Shown: positions 29,702 through 36,668 of the stretch, piece by piece
How the letters are laid out: the number at the start of each line of letters is the position of its first letter
Position numbering within the stretch: position 1 is the first letter of the stretch
DNA from: Bradyrhizobiaceae bacterium PARB1
GTDB taxonomy: Bacteria > Pseudomonadota > Alphaproteobacteria > Rhizobiales > Xanthobacteraceae
Length of the DNA: 64,000 nucleotides
Reading direction: 5' to 3'
Assembly: GCA_002256345.1 (NCBI GenBank)
Contig: NKIY01000009.1
Span: 124,001 to 188,000, forward strand
Notes under the pieces: generated by a model
Seen by the model: only the letters and a program-made list of their open reading frames with translations
Told to the model about the DNA's origin: nothing
The model's database searches: none
Made by a program: the position numbers and the translations under genes

Positions 29702-30025
29702 TCAGATGATCGAGCGATCCACATTGCGCACCTCGCCGGTACGCGCGTCCACGTCGACCTGGATCCACTTGCCATAGGCGTCGCGGCCCTCGATCTCCCA
29801 TTCATCGCCGTCGAAATGCGTGTTCTTCACCTGCACCACGCCGATGCGATAGGCGACCTGGATCGCCTGTTCGACGGTGAGCGGGCCGACCGGCATCACC
29901 GGCACGGCGACAGCCGCGCGCGGCGCGCGGGGCGCATAGATATCGGCCGCCACGGCCGGCAATGCGGTCGCGAATGCGCCCGCGGCCAGCACCGGAAGCA
30001 GGGCTTTGCGCAGCATCTGTTGCAT
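29702..30025 (-). CDS. PepSY-domain exported protein, copy 1
   Basis: 107-residue protein with signal peptide (MQQMLRKALLPVLAAGAFAT, cleaved after LPAVAA) and a C-terminal PepSY-like fold (LTVEQAIQVAYRIGVVQVKN, DGDEWEIEGRDAYGKWIQVD). Start at 30025 follows AAGGAGA. PepSY domains are often inhibitory or binding modules outside the cytoplasm; the target is unknown. A close paralogue lies at 31907-32230, and both have an EcfG-type promoter, so both are probably general-stress genes. An ATG at 30049 upstream is possible but has no better site. Confidence 0.88.
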   Translation of the reverse strand: MQQMLRKALLPVLAAGAFATALPAVAADIYAPRAPRAAVAVPVMPVGPLTVEQAIQVAYRIGVVQVKNTHFDGDEWEIEGRDAYGKWIQVDVDARTGEVRNVDRSII

Positions 30026-30105
30026 CGGAAATCTCCTTAGTGAACTCATCCCGCCTTCGCCCGCATGGCGAAGCGCGCCGCAGACAGCAGCGCTCGGAAA
30101 ATACG

Positions 30106-31906: not shown

Positions 31907-32230
31907 TCAGATGATCGAGCGATCCACATTCCGGATTTCGCCGGTGCGCGCGTCGATATCCACCTCGATCCATTTGCCATAGGTGTCGCGGCCCTCGATC
32001 TCCCATTCGTCGCCGTCGAAATGGGTGTTCTTCACCTGCACCACGCCGATGCCATAGGCCACCTGGATCGCCTGTTCGACGGTGAGCGGCCCCGCCGGCA
32101 TCACAGGCACGGCGACAGCCGCGCGCGGCGCGCGGGACACATAGACATCGGCCGCCATCGCCGGCACCGCGGCGCTGAGCACGCCGGCTGCGAGCATCGG
32201 AAGCAGGGCTTTGCGCAGGATCTGTTGCAT
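31907..32230 (-). CDS. PepSY-domain exported protein, copy 2
   Basis: 107-residue paralogue of the protein at 29702-30025, with the same length and layout: signal peptide (MQQILRKALLPMLAAGVLSA), then VAVPVMPAGPLTVEQAIQVA, DGDEWEIEGRDTYGKWIEVD and an identical end RNVDRSII. Start at 32230, preceded by GGAGATTTCC as in copy 1. The promoter region is also conserved, indicating duplication of gene plus promoter. Function unknown; probably envelope-located and stress-induced. Confidence 0.88.
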   Translation of the reverse strand: MQQILRKALLPMLAAGVLSAAVPAMAADVYVSRAPRAAVAVPVMPAGPLTVEQAIQVAYGIGVVQVKNTHFDGDEWEIEGRDTYGKWIEVDIDARTGEIRNVDRSII

Positions 32231-32310
32231 CGGAAATCTCCTCATGAATTCGCAAGTCGCATTCGTCGCGCGACGAAGTGCACCGCACACAGCGGCGCGT
32301 CGGGAATACG

Positions 32311-32335
32311 AACGCGGGGAGGGCACGGGTGTTCC
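32311..32335 (-). promoter_or_regulatory. EcfG-type stress promoter of PepSY gene 2
   Basis: Minus strand GGAAC (32335-32331), 16-base spacer, CGTT (32314-32311). Same consensus as copy 1. GAAATGGGGCGA just upstream of the -35 is also shared between the two copies. Confidence 0.72.
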
Positions 32336-32452
32336 GCAAGGAAATGGGGCGATTTGATGCGGGAAAAGCGGCATTAGGATACGCTGAGTATCTACAACTT
32401 AATCTTGAAATATAATCACAAAAACCATAGTTTATATAACCATGGATGATCG

Positions 32453-32830
32453 ATGCGTATCTTCAAGACGAAGAATCTCGCGCGGTTCACCAGGCAGCAC
32501 GGGATCGACGATGCCAGTCTCGTCGAGGCCGTCGCGCGTGCGAGGCGAGGTCTGATCGATGCCGATCTCGGCGGCCAGATCATCAAGCAGCGCGTGGCAC
32601 GGCCGGGCGAGGGCAGGCGAGGCGGCTTCCGCATGTTGCTCGGCTTTCGCTCCGATCGCGCGGTCTTCCTGTTTGGCTTCGCGAAGAACGAGCGTGAGAA
32701 TATCGGCGCTGACGAACTAATGACCTTGCGCGAATTGGTGTCGTTCTGGCTTGCCGCTGACGCGGCGGCGATCGACAGGGCGCTCAAGGATGGGAAACTT
32801 ATTGAGGTGCATGATGGCACGGAAGATTAG
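32453..32830 (+). CDS. RelE/HigB-like type II toxin
   Basis: 125-residue protein of the RelE-like toxin group (COG4737 type). It begins MRIFKTKNLARFTRQHGIDD, with the basic core QIIKQRVARPGEGRRGGFRM, then LLGFRSDRAVFLFGFAKNER, and an extended C-terminal helix region. Members cleave mRNA at the ribosome. The leader 32395-32452 is AT-rich and includes TATAAT at 32411-32416, a plausible promoter. The next gene overlaps its 3' end by 17 bp and encodes a helix-turn-helix antitoxin, confirming a TA operon with toxin first, as in higBA. Confidence 0.85.
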   Translation: MRIFKTKNLARFTRQHGIDDASLVEAVARARRGLIDADLGGQIIKQRVARPGEGRRGGFRMLLGFRSDRAVFLFGFAKNERENIGADELMTLRELVSFWLAADAAAIDRALKDGKLIEVHDGTED

Positions 32831-33170
32831 CAAGACACCTGCGAAGAAACGCACTAGCCGCCTCACGGCAGAATTGCTGGAGATCGCGGACGACATGCAT
32901 GCTGCCGGCCTATTGCCGAACGCCGCTCACGACAAGATCACAATGCGCCACATTGGGCCGCGTGCCGAAGCTGAAACAGTCGAACTGACAGGCGATGAGA
33001 TCAGGGCTATCCGCGAAAAGGCGCGGCTCAGCCAGGCGGTCTTTGCGCATCATCTGAAATTGACTGTCGGTCATGTGTCCAAGCTGGAGCGAGGCTCCGA
33101 ACGCGCAAAAGGACCTACTCTGGTTCTGCTGGATGTGATCCGGCGCAAGGGGATCGAAGCGATTCTATGA
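32814..33170 (+). CDS. HigA-like XRE-family antitoxin
   Basis: 118-residue antitoxin, ATG at 32814 (or 32811) inside the toxin gene's end, with TTGAGG just before. The N-terminal half (MARKISKTPAKKRTSRLTAE onward) probably binds the toxin; the C-terminal half is an XRE/Cro helix-turn-helix (DEIRAIREKARLSQAVFAHH, LTVGHVSKLERGSER, then GPTLVLLDVIRRKG). Such proteins neutralise the toxin and repress the operon. Base composition is host-like, in contrast to the next two genes. Confidence 0.87.
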   Translation: MARKISKTPAKKRTSRLTAELLEIADDMHAAGLLPNAAHDKITMRHIGPRAEAETVELTGDEIRAIREKARLSQAVFAHHLKLTVGHVSKLERGSERAKGPTLVLLDVIRRKGIEAIL

Positions 33171-33378
33171 TCTTTAGGATGAAATAAGATCGGAGGACGC
33201 GACTCATACAAATTGGTGTAGAGCGAGCACTTTCCTCGCGTCTTTCGCTAGTGCGATAGCTTGCGGGATGTAACCAGCGTTCGCGACTATTTGGCAGCCC
33301 ATTTCCGCTTCAATGCTTATTGACTGTCCGTTGGGCAGCACTATCGTACCAAAGCAACTTGAGCGCGAATTGGGGCCG

Positions 33379-34503
33379 ATGGATTCTCTAATAGAGATAA
33401 TTAAAGTCACAAATAGTAAAGAATTTTCGGAAACTGGAGGAGGGCACAATCAGAAGGGCGTCGAATTCCAGAGAAACTGGGCTTTGGTCCGAATGTTTGA
33501 GCTCGAGACCGCAAACGAGCCAGACTATCTATTTCTTTTCGAAGCAATCCAGGACATCGCGATTCTGGATTCTAGTTCTTCGCCGAAGAGAATTTCTATT
33601 TATCAAGTAAAGAAGAAAGATCGAAACGAATGGTCGTGGGGCAACCTTACGAACCTTCATAAGCCGAATTCCGTAAAAACTAAGCCGCTTAATGGTGCTG
33701 CCAATAGCCCTATCGGGAAACTTTATCTGGCTATCCGTGCTTTTAAACTTGTCGAGGGCACCGGCCGCTTCGTGTCCAATGCGGGATGCGACCTTGAGAT
33801 GGCGGACGGTACAAATGCTGCCACTTCACTCCCTATTTGTCTCGCAGATATCTCCTCAGAATTCAGGGATCTAGTTTTTGCTGGGCTTGCCTCGTGTCAC
33901 GATCCTAGCGAGCCTCCGCCAGACTTGAAATCAATATTCATCGAGCGGGTAAGTGTACCTGTCGATGATGCGTCAACCTATGCTGTCGGCAAGGCTCATG
34001 AATTGCTATTTGCCTTGAGCCCGTCACATGCAGGTCAAGCTCGTTCGTTCGTTGATGCGCTTCTTGCGAAGATTGGACCTCTGGGTGCAAGAACGGATAC
34101 TTGTGCAACATTCGAGCAAGTCAAAGAACGTCACGGGTTCGGCAGACGTCAGTTGAAGTCCGCTCTGGCGGATCTCCAGGAAATTCCGGATGTACTGCAA
34201 ACTTTAGAGACTTGGCTTTCAGCTTTGGCTTCTGAGGGTATGAGCATCATGCAGATCACGCGAATACGGTCTGCAGCGAGTGCTATCTTTCGTCACCAGT
34301 TAATCGGTGGAGCCTCTGATGGGGAAGAGATCGCTTATGCGTGCGACGAATGGCTTGTCGATAAAGAAGAACCCTCTCAGCTCATCCCATTCTTGGAGGG
34401 AGCTTTATTGGATCTTCAAAGTGAATTCAAATCAACTGAGCTGGCAAAGCTGCAGGCTCATATTCTGCTGCGAGCAATAGCCAAATGCGTGGTCCAGATC
34501 TAA
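33379..34503 (+). CDS. DUF4297/Cap4-like dsDNA nuclease, candidate defence effector
   Basis: 374-residue protein. Start at 33379 (GGGG five bases upstream); an ATG at 33313 is possible but has no ribosome site. The N-terminal domain, about residues 20-120, matches the pattern of PD-(D/E)xK nucleases called DUF4297 or Cap4: GGGHNQKGVEFQRNWALVRM, then Glu55 and Asp59 in LFLFEAIQDIAIL, then Gln76 and Lys78 in SIYQVKKKD. The C-terminal part is helical, with no domain I recognise. The gene is clearly AT-richer than its surroundings (33541-33600 has 26 G/C of 60) and precedes an SMC-like ATPase by 33 bp. In Lamassu and ABC-3C systems such nucleases are effectors; the same role is inferred here. Confidence 0.78.
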   Translation: MDSLIEIIKVTNSKEFSETGGGHNQKGVEFQRNWALVRMFELETANEPDYLFLFEAIQDIAILDSSSSPKRISIYQVKKKDRNEWSWGNLTNLHKPNSVKTKPLNGAANSPIGKLYLAIRAFKLVEGTGRFVSNAGCDLEMADGTNAATSLPICLADISSEFRDLVFAGLASCHDPSEPPPDLKSIFIERVSVPVDDASTYAVGKAHELLFALSPSHAGQARSFVDALLAKIGPLGARTDTCATFEQVKERHGFGRRQLKSALADLQEIPDVLQTLETWLSALASEGMSIMQITRIRSAASAIFRHQLIGGASDGEEIAYACDEWLVDKEEPSQLIPFLEGALLDLQSEFKSTELAKLQAHILLRAIAKCVVQI

Positions 34504-34536
34504 GGCGGCTTGTACGAAGCCTCAGGACGAAATCAT

Positions 34537-36231
34537 ATGAAAAGCTTGCGATTCGAAAACATCTGGCTGTTGTCAAAGAAGGAGGAACGCGCAAGGAAGG
34601 TGAAATTCGAGACGACAAATCTGATCGTCGGAATGAATCACACCGGAAAATCGAGTCTGATTAAATCGCTATTTGTAACTTTAGGGGCTGCGCCGGAAGG
34701 AAATCTTGCTGACTGGGACAAAGATGCGGTGACGTTAGTTGAGTTTTCGGTAGATGGCGTGACGTTCAAGGTCGTCCATCAGAATGGTTGTCGAGCGATC
34801 TTTGACAGTGATGGCAGCTTGCTGGCTTCGGCGGTCAATCATGCGAATTGGACGTCTATATTTGCCGACGTTAGCAATTTCAATCTTGTTTTGCCGGAGA
34901 AAAAAACCGACGCGGTGGTTAAAGCTGACGCACGTTGTTTCTTTTTGCCGTTCTACATAAATCAGGATGGTAGCTGGTTGTCAGGCTGGGATACATTTGT
35001 AGGGTTGCAGCAATATAAGACGCCCGTTGGTGCTATTCTTGATTATTTTACGGGTGTTAAGCCGCCTGAATGGTATCAGGTAAATTCTGAGAAGGCGCTG
35101 GTGCAGCGTGATTTGGATGCGCATCGCCAAGAGCATGCGTTGGTTTCGCGATTTCGCGAGCGTTTCAGTAAAACGATGTCGTTGTCTGGGCCCAAGTTTG
35201 ATTCTCAAATCTTCGACCAAGATATCTCTCGGCTGGTTCAAGAAGTAAGTGAACTAAATTCGGAGCAGGAGAAGCTCCGTGATGTTGCTGTTCGCGAGCG
35301 AGAGACGGCGAATAGTGCTCTTCTTCAAGCCAATCTGGCGATCCACGCGCTGGCTGTTTACGATAATGACTCATCGTACTTGCGAGACATTGAGCATGAC
35401 GACTTGGTCTGCCCAACATGTGGTGCTGAGCATGATAAGTCTTTCATGGCGATGTTGAATTATGCCGAAGATGCTCGTGTTTTACGTCAGCTGGCCGTTA
35501 GGCTGAAGGTGGATGCGAGAAATGCTAATAATCAGTACGAAGAGACGAAGAAGAAAGTACGTGATTTAGAAAGTCGCTACGCTTCGGTCTCTAATTTGCT
35601 CAGTACTCGGCGGGGTGACCTGGAATTCGGTGACGTTGTGCGAAGTATGGGCGCCGAGGCTGCATTCGCAATGTTTGAGAAGGATCTTGACGCTCTGAAA
35701 GGAGACATCGACGCGTGTCTTATCCAGATCGATGAGTTCGATCAGCAGCTAAAAGAGCTTACAAATGCAAAGCGTTCGAAAGAAATTCTGAAATTATTCC
35801 GAGCGTCTTATGCCGCCGCAATGACGGCTCTTTCCACATCTGCGGCTAACGCGGAAAAGGCTCGGCTTACTAGTAAGCCAAATGTTTCGGGCAGCGGCGG
35901 CCCTCGCACTATCCTAGCTTACTATTCAGCGCTATGGCGTACATGTTTTGGTCAGTACGGCTCTTATTCCGTTCCGCTTGTTATAGATTCTCCGCAGCAG
36001 CAAGGTCAGGATGTAGAGAATTTGCCGCGGATGATTAGGTACATAGCCAAAGATATGCCAAGCGGTGCTCAGGTTATTCTCGGGGTGGAAACGCCTACTT
36101 CTGAGAAATTCGACCAAGTTATTGAACTATCTGAGCCCTACCGTCTTCTAGAGACAAAAGCTTTTGCTGAAGTTGATAGCGTTGTGCTCCCATACTTGGA
36201 TAAAATGCATCTCAGTTTGCTCAGCACATAA
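34537..36231 (+). CDS. Rad50/SMC-like ATPase, candidate defence sensor
   Basis: 564-residue ABC/SMC-type ATPase. Start at 34537 with AGGA 10 bases upstream; a TTG at 34510 is the alternative. Walker A GMNHTGKS at residues 32-39; coiled-coil regions around about 200-290 and 310-430, separated by CPTCGAEH at residues 292-299, resembling a Rad50 zinc hook; a degenerate ABC signature SGSGGPR at 451-457; Walker B VPLVIDSPQQQ ending in Asp484, where the residue after it is Ser rather than the usual Glu. It is shorter than most SMC proteins. AT-rich (35401-35460 has 28 G/C of 60). Paired with the nuclease gene, it is probably the invader- or DNA-end-sensing part of a two-gene defence module. Confidence 0.82.
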   Translation: MKSLRFENIWLLSKKEERARKVKFETTNLIVGMNHTGKSSLIKSLFVTLGAAPEGNLADWDKDAVTLVEFSVDGVTFKVVHQNGCRAIFDSDGSLLASAVNHANWTSIFADVSNFNLVLPEKKTDAVVKADARCFFLPFYINQDGSWLSGWDTFVGLQQYKTPVGAILDYFTGVKPPEWYQVNSEKALVQRDLDAHRQEHALVSRFRERFSKTMSLSGPKFDSQIFDQDISRLVQEVSELNSEQEKLRDVAVRERETANSALLQANLAIHALAVYDNDSSYLRDIEHDDLVCPTCGAEHDKSFMAMLNYAEDARVLRQLAVRLKVDARNANNQYEETKKKVRDLESRYASVSNLLSTRRGDLEFGDVVRSMGAEAAFAMFEKDLDALKGDIDACLIQIDEFDQQLKELTNAKRSKEILKLFRASYAAAMTALSTSAANAEKARLTSKPNVSGSGGPRTILAYYSALWRTCFGQYGSYSVPLVIDSPQQQGQDVENLPRMIRYIAKDMPSGAQVILGVETPTSEKFDQVIELSEPYRLLETKAFAEVDSVVLPYLDKMHLSLLST

Positions 36232-36260
36232 CGTCTCGATTGTTCTAAATGTGCTCGAAC

Positions 36261-36300
36261 TAACAAAACGGCCGGATCTCGCGATCCGGCCGTTTTGTTA
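36261..36300. terminator. Strong bidirectional terminator
   Basis: Perfect 18-base stem (36261-36278 with 36283-36300) around TCGC, with AAAA and TTTT at the stem ends. It closes the nuclease-ATPase module on the plus strand and rpmB on the minus strand. Confidence 0.93.
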
Positions 36301-36371
36301 ATTCTGATACGAAGCTGCGCCGTTGCGACGCGCCGTCCTTCAGCTCAGGCAGCTCACGCCGCCCAAAAACC

Positions 36372-36668
36372 TCAGGCAGCCTTGGCTTCGGCCTGCTTCT
36401 TCTCGATGGCGCGCTTGAGCAGCACGGCCTTGGCGGAGAGCTCGCTCTCCTTCGCCGCGTTCAGGTAAGCGTCGAAACCACCGCGGTGGTCCACCGACTT
36501 CACGGCATTGGCGGAGACGCGCAGGCGCACGCCGCGGCCGAGCGCGTCGGAAATGAAGGTCACATTGACCAGGTTCGGCAGAAACCGGCGCTTGGTCTTG
36601 ATGTTCGAATGGCTCACCTTGTGGCCGACCTGCGGGCCCTTCAGTGTCAGTTCACAACGCCGGGACAT
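36372..36668 (-). CDS. rpmB: 50S ribosomal protein L28
   Basis: 98-residue L28: [56 protein letters not shown]. The C-terminal extension is normal for alphaproteobacteria. Only one of the usual bacterial zinc-ribbon cysteine pairs' residues (Cys5) is seen, so it is likely a zinc-free form. Monocistronic, ending 71 bp before the bidirectional terminator. Confidence 0.97.

Follow-up and report, generated by a model that had tools for sequence, protein, structure and literature searches.

The window analysed here, 64,000 nucleotides (nt) of Bradyrhizobiaceae bacterium PARB1 (assembly GCA_002256345.1, contig NKIY01000009.1, positions 124,001 to 188,000), carries lmuA and lmuB, a nuclease and ATPase gene pair of the Lamassu defence family. 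In this study, comparison with related loci indicated that the locus is very probably a type I Lamassu system lying as cargo beside an rpmB-like gene, and that its operon also encodes a small basic protein in the third reading frame. The open reading frame (ORF) of this protein, referred to here as the micro-ORF, overlaps the junction of the two genes and, judged from its substitution pattern, behaves as protein-coding where it occurs. The three features are arranged as follows (aa, amino acids).

33379..34503, + strand: lmuA, Cap4/DUF4297-type nuclease effector, 374 aa (PADLOC LmuA PDLC00245, Pfam Cap4_nuclease)
34485..34664, + strand: overlapping micro-ORF, 59 codons plus TAA, third frame, proposed hidden middle component (junction comparison, profile)
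34537..36231, + strand: lmuB, SMC/Rad50-like ATPase with a CPTC hook, 564 aa (PADLOC LmuB PDLC00253, PDB 9ux7_A)

The micro-ORF at the lmuA-lmuB junction

The micro-ORF starts with an ATG that falls among the final seven codons of lmuA, and its 3' end lies within the Walker A region of lmuB. It was missing from the first ORF list because of the 60 aa limit of that list, in which no same-strand ORF of at least 60 aa stood between the two genes. The original prediction, made from the sequence alone, had noted that no LmuC-like or middle gene was visible; LmuC was indeed not found, but the middle position is occupied by this unannotated overlapping frame. For the comparison of loci (designated L with a number), the best 80 of 168 relatives were kept, representing 77 distinct loci. 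The spacing of exactly 33 nt seen in the window recurred in 25 of the 85 loci in which lmuA precedes lmuB, with the conserved ATG taken as the lmuB start, and the LmuB proteins of those 25 loci were only 46-64% identical to that of the window. The third-frame peptide starts inside or at the end of lmuA, crosses the lmuB start and continues within lmuB, with a core resembling (F/L)(K/R)xL(I/V)R(N/S)LR(T/K)xxxEKLxIxK.

A profile built from 47 of the 72 micro-ORF sequences matched 90 of the 96 loci having a junction, 43 of which were outside the profile. The match spanned the lmuB start in 86 of the 90; in L141, L151 and L157 it preceded an lmuB that the ORF list gives as broken or late-starting, and in L015 it was split by the program into part-matches of one ORF. 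Outside the 90, L142 and L005 look by eye like diverged micro-ORFs, and no micro-ORF was present in L154, L007, L008 or L013. Nine further plasmid or phage loci, none of them in the profile, carried the micro-ORF in five cases (Pseudomonas putida, Aliarcobacter, Novosphingobium, Mesorhizobium and Hymenobacter plasmids; E ≤1.3e-10 in a small search) and lacked it in four. The micro-ORF occurs in most of the clade and has been kept across Pseudomonadota, Bacteroidota, Bacillota and Planctomycetota. Seven annotated plasmid records bearing it list no gene there, in a PLSDB gene table that is incomplete.

In an LmuB tree of 87 sequences, several deep branches of which are poorly supported, four loci without the micro-ORF (L007, L008, L013 and L165; a Klebsiella plasmid, a Klebsiella phage, a Vibrio plasmid and one further genome) formed a clade that also lacks the Cys hook and is nested among ORF-bearing loci. 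This arrangement gives a hint, from what would be a single event, that hook and micro-ORF may have been lost together in one clade. L154 lacks the micro-ORF singly, and L168, L169 and L170, which have the hook and lack the micro-ORF, lie on deep and poorly supported branches. A scan of viral sequences with the LmuB of PDB entry 9ux7 gave no match; plasmid and phage searches with the same query gave matches that were all distant except for a closer, partial one on an Enterococcus plasmid, which had no readable lmuA-lmuB junction.

The coding behaviour of the micro-ORF was evident in the counts of stops and synonymous changes. The micro frame contained 0 stops in 640 codons, compared with 70/576 and 31/576 in the other two frames, and single-base codon differences were synonymous in 5214 of 7247 cases (72%) in the micro frame versus 17% and 8% in the others. 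These two counts used 64 of 75 loci, namely those whose 30 nt before lmuB lie outside lmuA. At the same conserved positions, Arg was written as AGA, AGG, CGA, CGG, CGT and CGC, and Leu as CTN and TTR. When loci were thinned to LmuB identities below 50, 40 and 35% (31, 12 and 9 loci), the synonymous share remained at 68, 55 and 53%, against 30% or less in the other frames. An ATG was found 13-23 codons before the codon spanning the lmuB start in 72 of the 75 loci, and at 16-19 codons in 66 of those. Moreover, the micro frame remained free of stops within lmuB over a median of 38 codons versus 13 in synonymous reshuffles of lmuB (p<0.5 in 75/76 loci, p<0.05 in 26/76), and four of the five controls without the full motif had no significant excess. 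Numbering the start-spanning codon as 0, alternate-frame residues 1, 2, 3, 5 and 7 (E, K, L, I, K) were conserved beyond a synonymous null in 68 loci, whereas residues 4, 6, 8 and 9 were not.

The loci underlying these tests were selected from 97. For the stop, synonymy and ATG counts, 22 were left out and 75 remained. Those left out were near-duplicates or cut (L085, L145, L106, L099, L162, L163, L131, L148, L152, L109, L117, L103), had a broken, late or cut lmuB (L141, L151, L157, L105), or had an absent, partial or diverged motif (L007, L008, L013, L154, L146, L005). The 16 near-duplicate, cut or broken-lmuB loci were likewise left out of the open-frame test, leaving 76, with the controls L007, L008, L013, L154 and L146 shown apart. 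The residue-conservation test used those 68 of the 75 loci that have equal N-terminal length, and 12 of the 97 (L141, L151, L157, L105, L007, L008, L013, L154, L146, L005, L009, L103) were removed before identity thinning.

The micro products ranged from 44 to 79 aa (median 56) and were basic, with a median pI of 10.2 in 72 sequences; the conserved core is approximately 25 aa long and the tail is poorly conserved. In the peptide of the window, one short helix was predicted (residues 4-15) and no other structure. Searches of Pfam, PADLOC, NCBIfam and PHROGs gave matches from only one or two of 47 members at E ≥0.006, and no Pfam family was matched by more than one of the 47. The best PDB match of the profile was the N-terminus of ribosomal protein eL18 (E 0.008), which is taken as a shared basic helix and not as evidence of function. 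With no recurring match in any of these libraries or in PDB, membership of a known family was rejected. An RNA element at the junction was also considered and discarded, as RNAalifold predicted no pair in a consensus fold of 16 sequences and no Rfam match was found in 33200-36400. Among the papers listed for Lamassu genes and for Lamassu with small or overlapping genes, which did not include the primary Lamassu structure papers, no report of the micro-ORF was apparent. The overlapping micro-ORF is presented as the new result at this junction, and it may have been seen before.

Family placement of LmuA and LmuB

The two proteins themselves are, on profile evidence, ordinary members of type I Lamassu, and the pair is not new in itself. 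Both ORFs lie on the + strand with 33 nt between them, as originally described. PADLOC model PDLC00245 matched LmuA over residues 2-373 (E 5.1e-138, the best of 11 LmuA models with a match), and Pfam Cap4_nuclease scored 57.5 bits against a cut-off of 26.2; an NCBIfam scan of the nuclease gave no match. The expected DUF4297/Cap4-type catalytic residues (Glu55, Asp59, Gln76/Lys78) proved to be conserved: D59, Q76 and K78 were invariant and E55 nearly so in 13 aligned LmuA, and the former three remained invariant in 47 sequences, consisting of the window's LmuA and 46 of 67 counted relatives. The AF2 model of LmuA was confident (predicted local distance difference test, pLDDT, 94.9), with a helical C-terminal part. 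The nearest solved fold was Hachiman HamA (8zue, E 1.9e-5), followed by the LmuA of a Salmonella Lamassu (9hr5, a DNA-bound tetramer by its title; E 1e-3); the template modelling scores against both were low (0.29-0.39), and a solved Cap4 ranked lower and was not significant (E 0.2).

The ATPase was matched by PADLOC LmuB PDLC00253 over residues 1-563 (E 8.1e-231), and the LmuB profile found the solved 'Lamassu protein LmuB' 9ux7_A (E 1.3e-35); NCBIfam gave below-cut-off matches only, the best of which were SMC/Rad50-like families. Walker A, the signature (as SGSGG), the Walker B Asp and the Cys hook of Rad50/SMC proteins are all present, as had been pointed out, and G32/G37/K38/S39, C292/P293/C295, G452/S453, D484 and S485 were invariant in eight aligned LmuB. 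The catalytic Glu after the Walker B Asp is absent and replaced by Ser, and for this reason LmuB is probably slow in ATP hydrolysis. Ser occupied that position in 11 of 13 aligned LmuB including that of the window (Ala and Thr in the others), and in 84 of 95 loci (8 Thr, 3 Ala), a count biased by one search pattern that contained DSP. The solved LmuB of 9ux7 likewise has Ser and SGSG. In passages of a review, many LmuB are described as carrying a zinc hook and their Walker B Glu as generally replaced by Gln (PMC10586767). The Ser and the SGSG signature, singled out in the original prediction as unusual, are accordingly best described from the alignments as family traits.

That prediction had also proposed an undescribed module or a minimal two-gene variant. 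The profile search that it named as the test of novelty was run, and the matches (LmuA 5e-138, LmuB 8e-231) refuted it: the full-length PADLOC matches, together with the type I definition in the consulted part of PMC8565338, place both proteins in Lamassu. LmuC is present in approximately 10.2% of Lamassu systems, which were named type II, according to the same part of that paper, and its absence from some systems is mentioned in the review passages (PMC10586767). Since LmuC is rare and defines type II, two genes without it represent the original layout, type I. The gene neighbourhoods agreed with a conserved pairing, as lmuA preceded lmuB in 85 of 86 related loci (the remaining one is truncated by a contig end) and none of 12 plasmid records annotated a middle gene. 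The PADLOC LmuC model PDLC00264 had no match in the window's genome, in a search that was also silent in all 398 genomes and in the controls and is therefore weak. Models 00263 and 00265 were considered as LmuC and rejected, neither of them being LmuC.

Compared with known systems, the locus shares with Lamassu type I the full-length profile matches, the gene order, the two annotated genes and the failure to find LmuC, and differs in that its junction carries an overlapping micro-ORF matching no recurring family in five libraries. PDB entries 9ux7/9ux8 hold LmuA and LmuB chains in one entry, with an LmuB of 562 aa that has the SGSG and the Ser after the Walker B Asp; however, this LmuB is distant from the window's (phmmer E 5e-11), the LmuA, at 315 aa, is the shorter of the two and has a weak match (E 0.008) confined to the nuclease core, and no chain is matched by the micro-ORF profile. 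Lamassu type II/DdmABC and the ABC three-component systems have an SMC-like ATPase and, in the review passages (PMC10586767), three genes, of which the middle one is small. The PADLOC LmuC model spans 159 positions, and 0 of 47 micro sequences matched it at E≤0.1. Of the two closest designs suggested originally, Lamassu was borne out by the profiles, but ABC three-component was not: none of the Pfam models named for it, which comprise a CTD set for the effector C-terminus and an MC set for the middle component, matched LmuA or LmuB, and the only Pfam match of LmuA was Cap4_nuclease. A related nuclease domain is found in CBASS Cap4 and Hachiman HamA, although the window's LmuA gave no Pfam match to the C-terminal SAVED domain expected of CBASS Cap4; no search was made for the nearby cyclase. 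The partners and sensing of these two systems differ from those of Lamassu.

Possible role of the microprotein

Lamassu is thought to work by abortive infection, according to the review passages (PMC10586767). By analogy with the family, an LmuB dimer would sense phage DNA or replication intermediates through its ATPase heads and hooked coiled coil and would then release or assemble LmuA, which would cut DNA and stop the cell before phage release. LmuB without the Walker B Glu would probably act as a one-shot switch. The microprotein helix may bind LmuB or LmuA and help to assemble or restrain the complex. Our preferred reading, to which a probability of about 0.4 is given, is that the microprotein may be a third component with a structural or regulatory part to play, docking on either LmuB or LmuA in the place of LmuC or a 'middle component'. 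Read in this way, the 'two-gene' type I Lamassu might be, somewhat short of an even chance, a three-component system with a hidden gene of approximately 50-60 codons as the minimal middle subunit controlling LmuA and LmuB.

Several observations weigh against this reading. The micro-ORF is absent from L007, L008, L013, L154, L165, L168, L169 and L170; several loci being without it, not every Lamassu pair needs it. L146 gave only a partial profile match (E 4e-4) and, as a control in the open-frame test, nevertheless had a significant open tail (p 0.005). Three of the 75 loci (L135, L137, L139) have the core but only GTG or TTG and no ATG. Shine-Dalgarno pairing before the micro start exceeded that at random positions only modestly (median -2.8 versus -2.1 kcal/mol, 72 starts) and was weak in the window (-2.2). 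Past approximately residue 12 the conservation excess is small, with lesser peaks at 26 and 28, and the AF2 model of the micro peptide has low confidence (pLDDT 65). In addition, the synonymous null for residue conservation takes no account of common ancestry and inflates the z values, for which reason positions were only compared with one another. The stop, synonymy and ATG counts were made after removing loci without the motif and describe ORF-bearing loci. The LmuB-dimer, DNA-sensing and one-shot steps rest on the review and on family knowledge.

The same observations can be explained in other ways. The micro-ORF could be a leader peptide whose translation sets the timing or amount of LmuB and whose residues matter for ribosome pausing; its core spans the lmuB start codon at a near-constant distance, the peptide is short and basic with a variable tail, and the ORF begins within lmuA or at its end, a placement seen in coupled genes. 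We consider this unlikely, as conservation extends eight codons beyond the lmuB start, the frame stays open for some 38 codons into lmuB, more than a leader would need, and a conserved RNA fold was not found at the junction. The product could also be an antitoxin-like inhibitor that silences the LmuA nuclease until infection. Such a role would suit a small, basic protein with one predicted helix, encoded in the middle position between effector and sensor. However, in L007, L008 and L013, which have no micro-ORF, LmuA is of similar length (357-361 aa) and is presumably controllable without it, and this explanation seems quite improbable.

It is very doubtful that the conserved peptide is no free protein and serves as a tail of LmuA or a head of LmuB made by programmed frameshifting, although it overlaps both genes and its relation to the lmuB frame is constant. 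That frame does not vary among the rows that have the motif, a constancy expected from a core that spans the lmuB start, whereas relative to lmuA the frame is +1 or +2 depending on the clade, which favours an independent start, and the peptide's own ATG is there in 72/75 loci. Furthermore, LmuB would lose its conserved first strand if the shift into its frame came after the conserved part of the peptide, and the motif is out of frame with lmuB in every motif-bearing locus compared, so that no natural fusion was seen. We give hardly any weight to the view that this is an ordinary type I pair with nothing new, whose junction is conserved solely for a signal at the DNA or RNA level. In its favour, LmuA and LmuB are plain Lamassu proteins and the lmuB ribosome-binding site lies within the junction, but such a signal would not produce a frame-specific synonymous pattern and an absence of stops across distant loci.

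The rpmB-side insertion site and implications

The pair has a GC content of 0.48-0.50 against approximately 0.62 in its surroundings, so that the AT-richness reported for it was reproduced, and its description as a likely defence pair, probably horizontally acquired, was judged right. The site comprises the following features.

33173..36256, no strand: AT-rich insert between conserved chromosomal flanks (flank alignments, GC)
36265..36297, no strand: rpmB terminator hairpin, core chromosome (fold energy, genus relatives)
36372..36668, - strand: rpmB-like gene, right flank of the hotspot (ORF; homologous DNA in genus relatives)

We take the last gene to be rpmB from its protein sequence. The strong terminator attributed to the end of the pair does exist as a hairpin at approximately 36265-36297 (-34 kcal/mol, z -9.7), but it belongs to rpmB and not to the island: its core was present in 13/13 genus relatives fetched (of 17 others in the genus), with a one-arm mismatch in L073, and 0/13 of them matched the window's LmuB. 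Being kept in relatives without a matching LmuB, it is rpmB's own terminator, although lmuB transcripts, being convergent, would meet it as well.

Core DNA resumes on the right at this terminator and on the left at a PepSY-like gene (31907-32374). The interval between them (window 32375-36260) holds 2.5-7.0 kb of other DNA in 11 of the 13 relatives and 0.6-0.7 kb in two, with interval ends set by eye. Defence-type families occur at the spot in 6 of 13 relatives; the other cargo is small, unrecognised or not clearly defensive. The families comprise NACHT; ABC three-component CTD12 with DUF2326; an LmuB of another type beside a transposase; AbiJ; a cytosine methylase with a GmrSD/NsnA-like gene; and HD-CE with HATPase. 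The PepSY-like-to-rpmB interval is a hotspot with rotating cargo in this genus. The distribution of LmuB is patchy: it was found in 1/18 genomes of the genus, 4/296 of the family (one a fragment), 2/385 of the class and 6/398 of the phylum, the window's genome included; the latter three are lower bounds, the best three or four candidates per genome having been scored.

Other genes were noted at the site and in related genomes. Directly upstream of the insert, a RelE-type toxin gene and an overlapping helix-turn-helix (HTH) antitoxin-like gene (32453-33170) were seen, and the pair recurs at the same spot in L065 (86-91% protein identity) and L068 (64-80%). The PepSY-like flanking gene has a similar neighbour on the same - strand (29702-30049; 85% DNA match), and the Pfam match is below its cut-off. 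L067:2371-5344 and L068:2269-5241 share a three-gene hotspot module, with proteins 86, 65 and 79% identical. Its first protein (562-563 aa) has nucleotide-kinase and adenylosuccinate-synthetase parts in L067, the second (187-194 aa) is approximately 31% identical to the first over 178 aa, and the third has 241 aa; PADLOC gave only a weak dCTPase match (2e-6, 5e-6). This is possibly an undescribed defence module acting on purines. Further cargo genes at L069:2528-4534 (668 aa), L071:2764-4128 (454 aa) and L072:2579-5559 (229+318+441 aa) gave nothing in PADLOC at 1e-5 (five proteins) or, for the four that were scanned there, in Pfam at 0.001. Decayed LmuB genes were seen in L016, a family relative with only two short fragments, and in L009, a Haematobacter plasmid where LmuB is split into two ORFs. 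A search for a solved structure of the middle protein of the L075 system had no useful outcome.

Additional defence systems of this group could be sought at the rpmB-side hotspot. Should the micro-ORF be translated, the annotated two-gene Lamassu of this clade are one gene short, and the junction would stand out for its clarity among conserved gene overlaps in bacteria. If the proposal is true, reconstitutions with lmuA and lmuB on separate vectors or in recoded form may miss the micro-ORF unnoticed and yield an incomplete system. In that case, the microprotein would also suggest a concrete and testable way in which an SMC-like sensor whose ATPase is weakened could retain its nuclease and then let it go.

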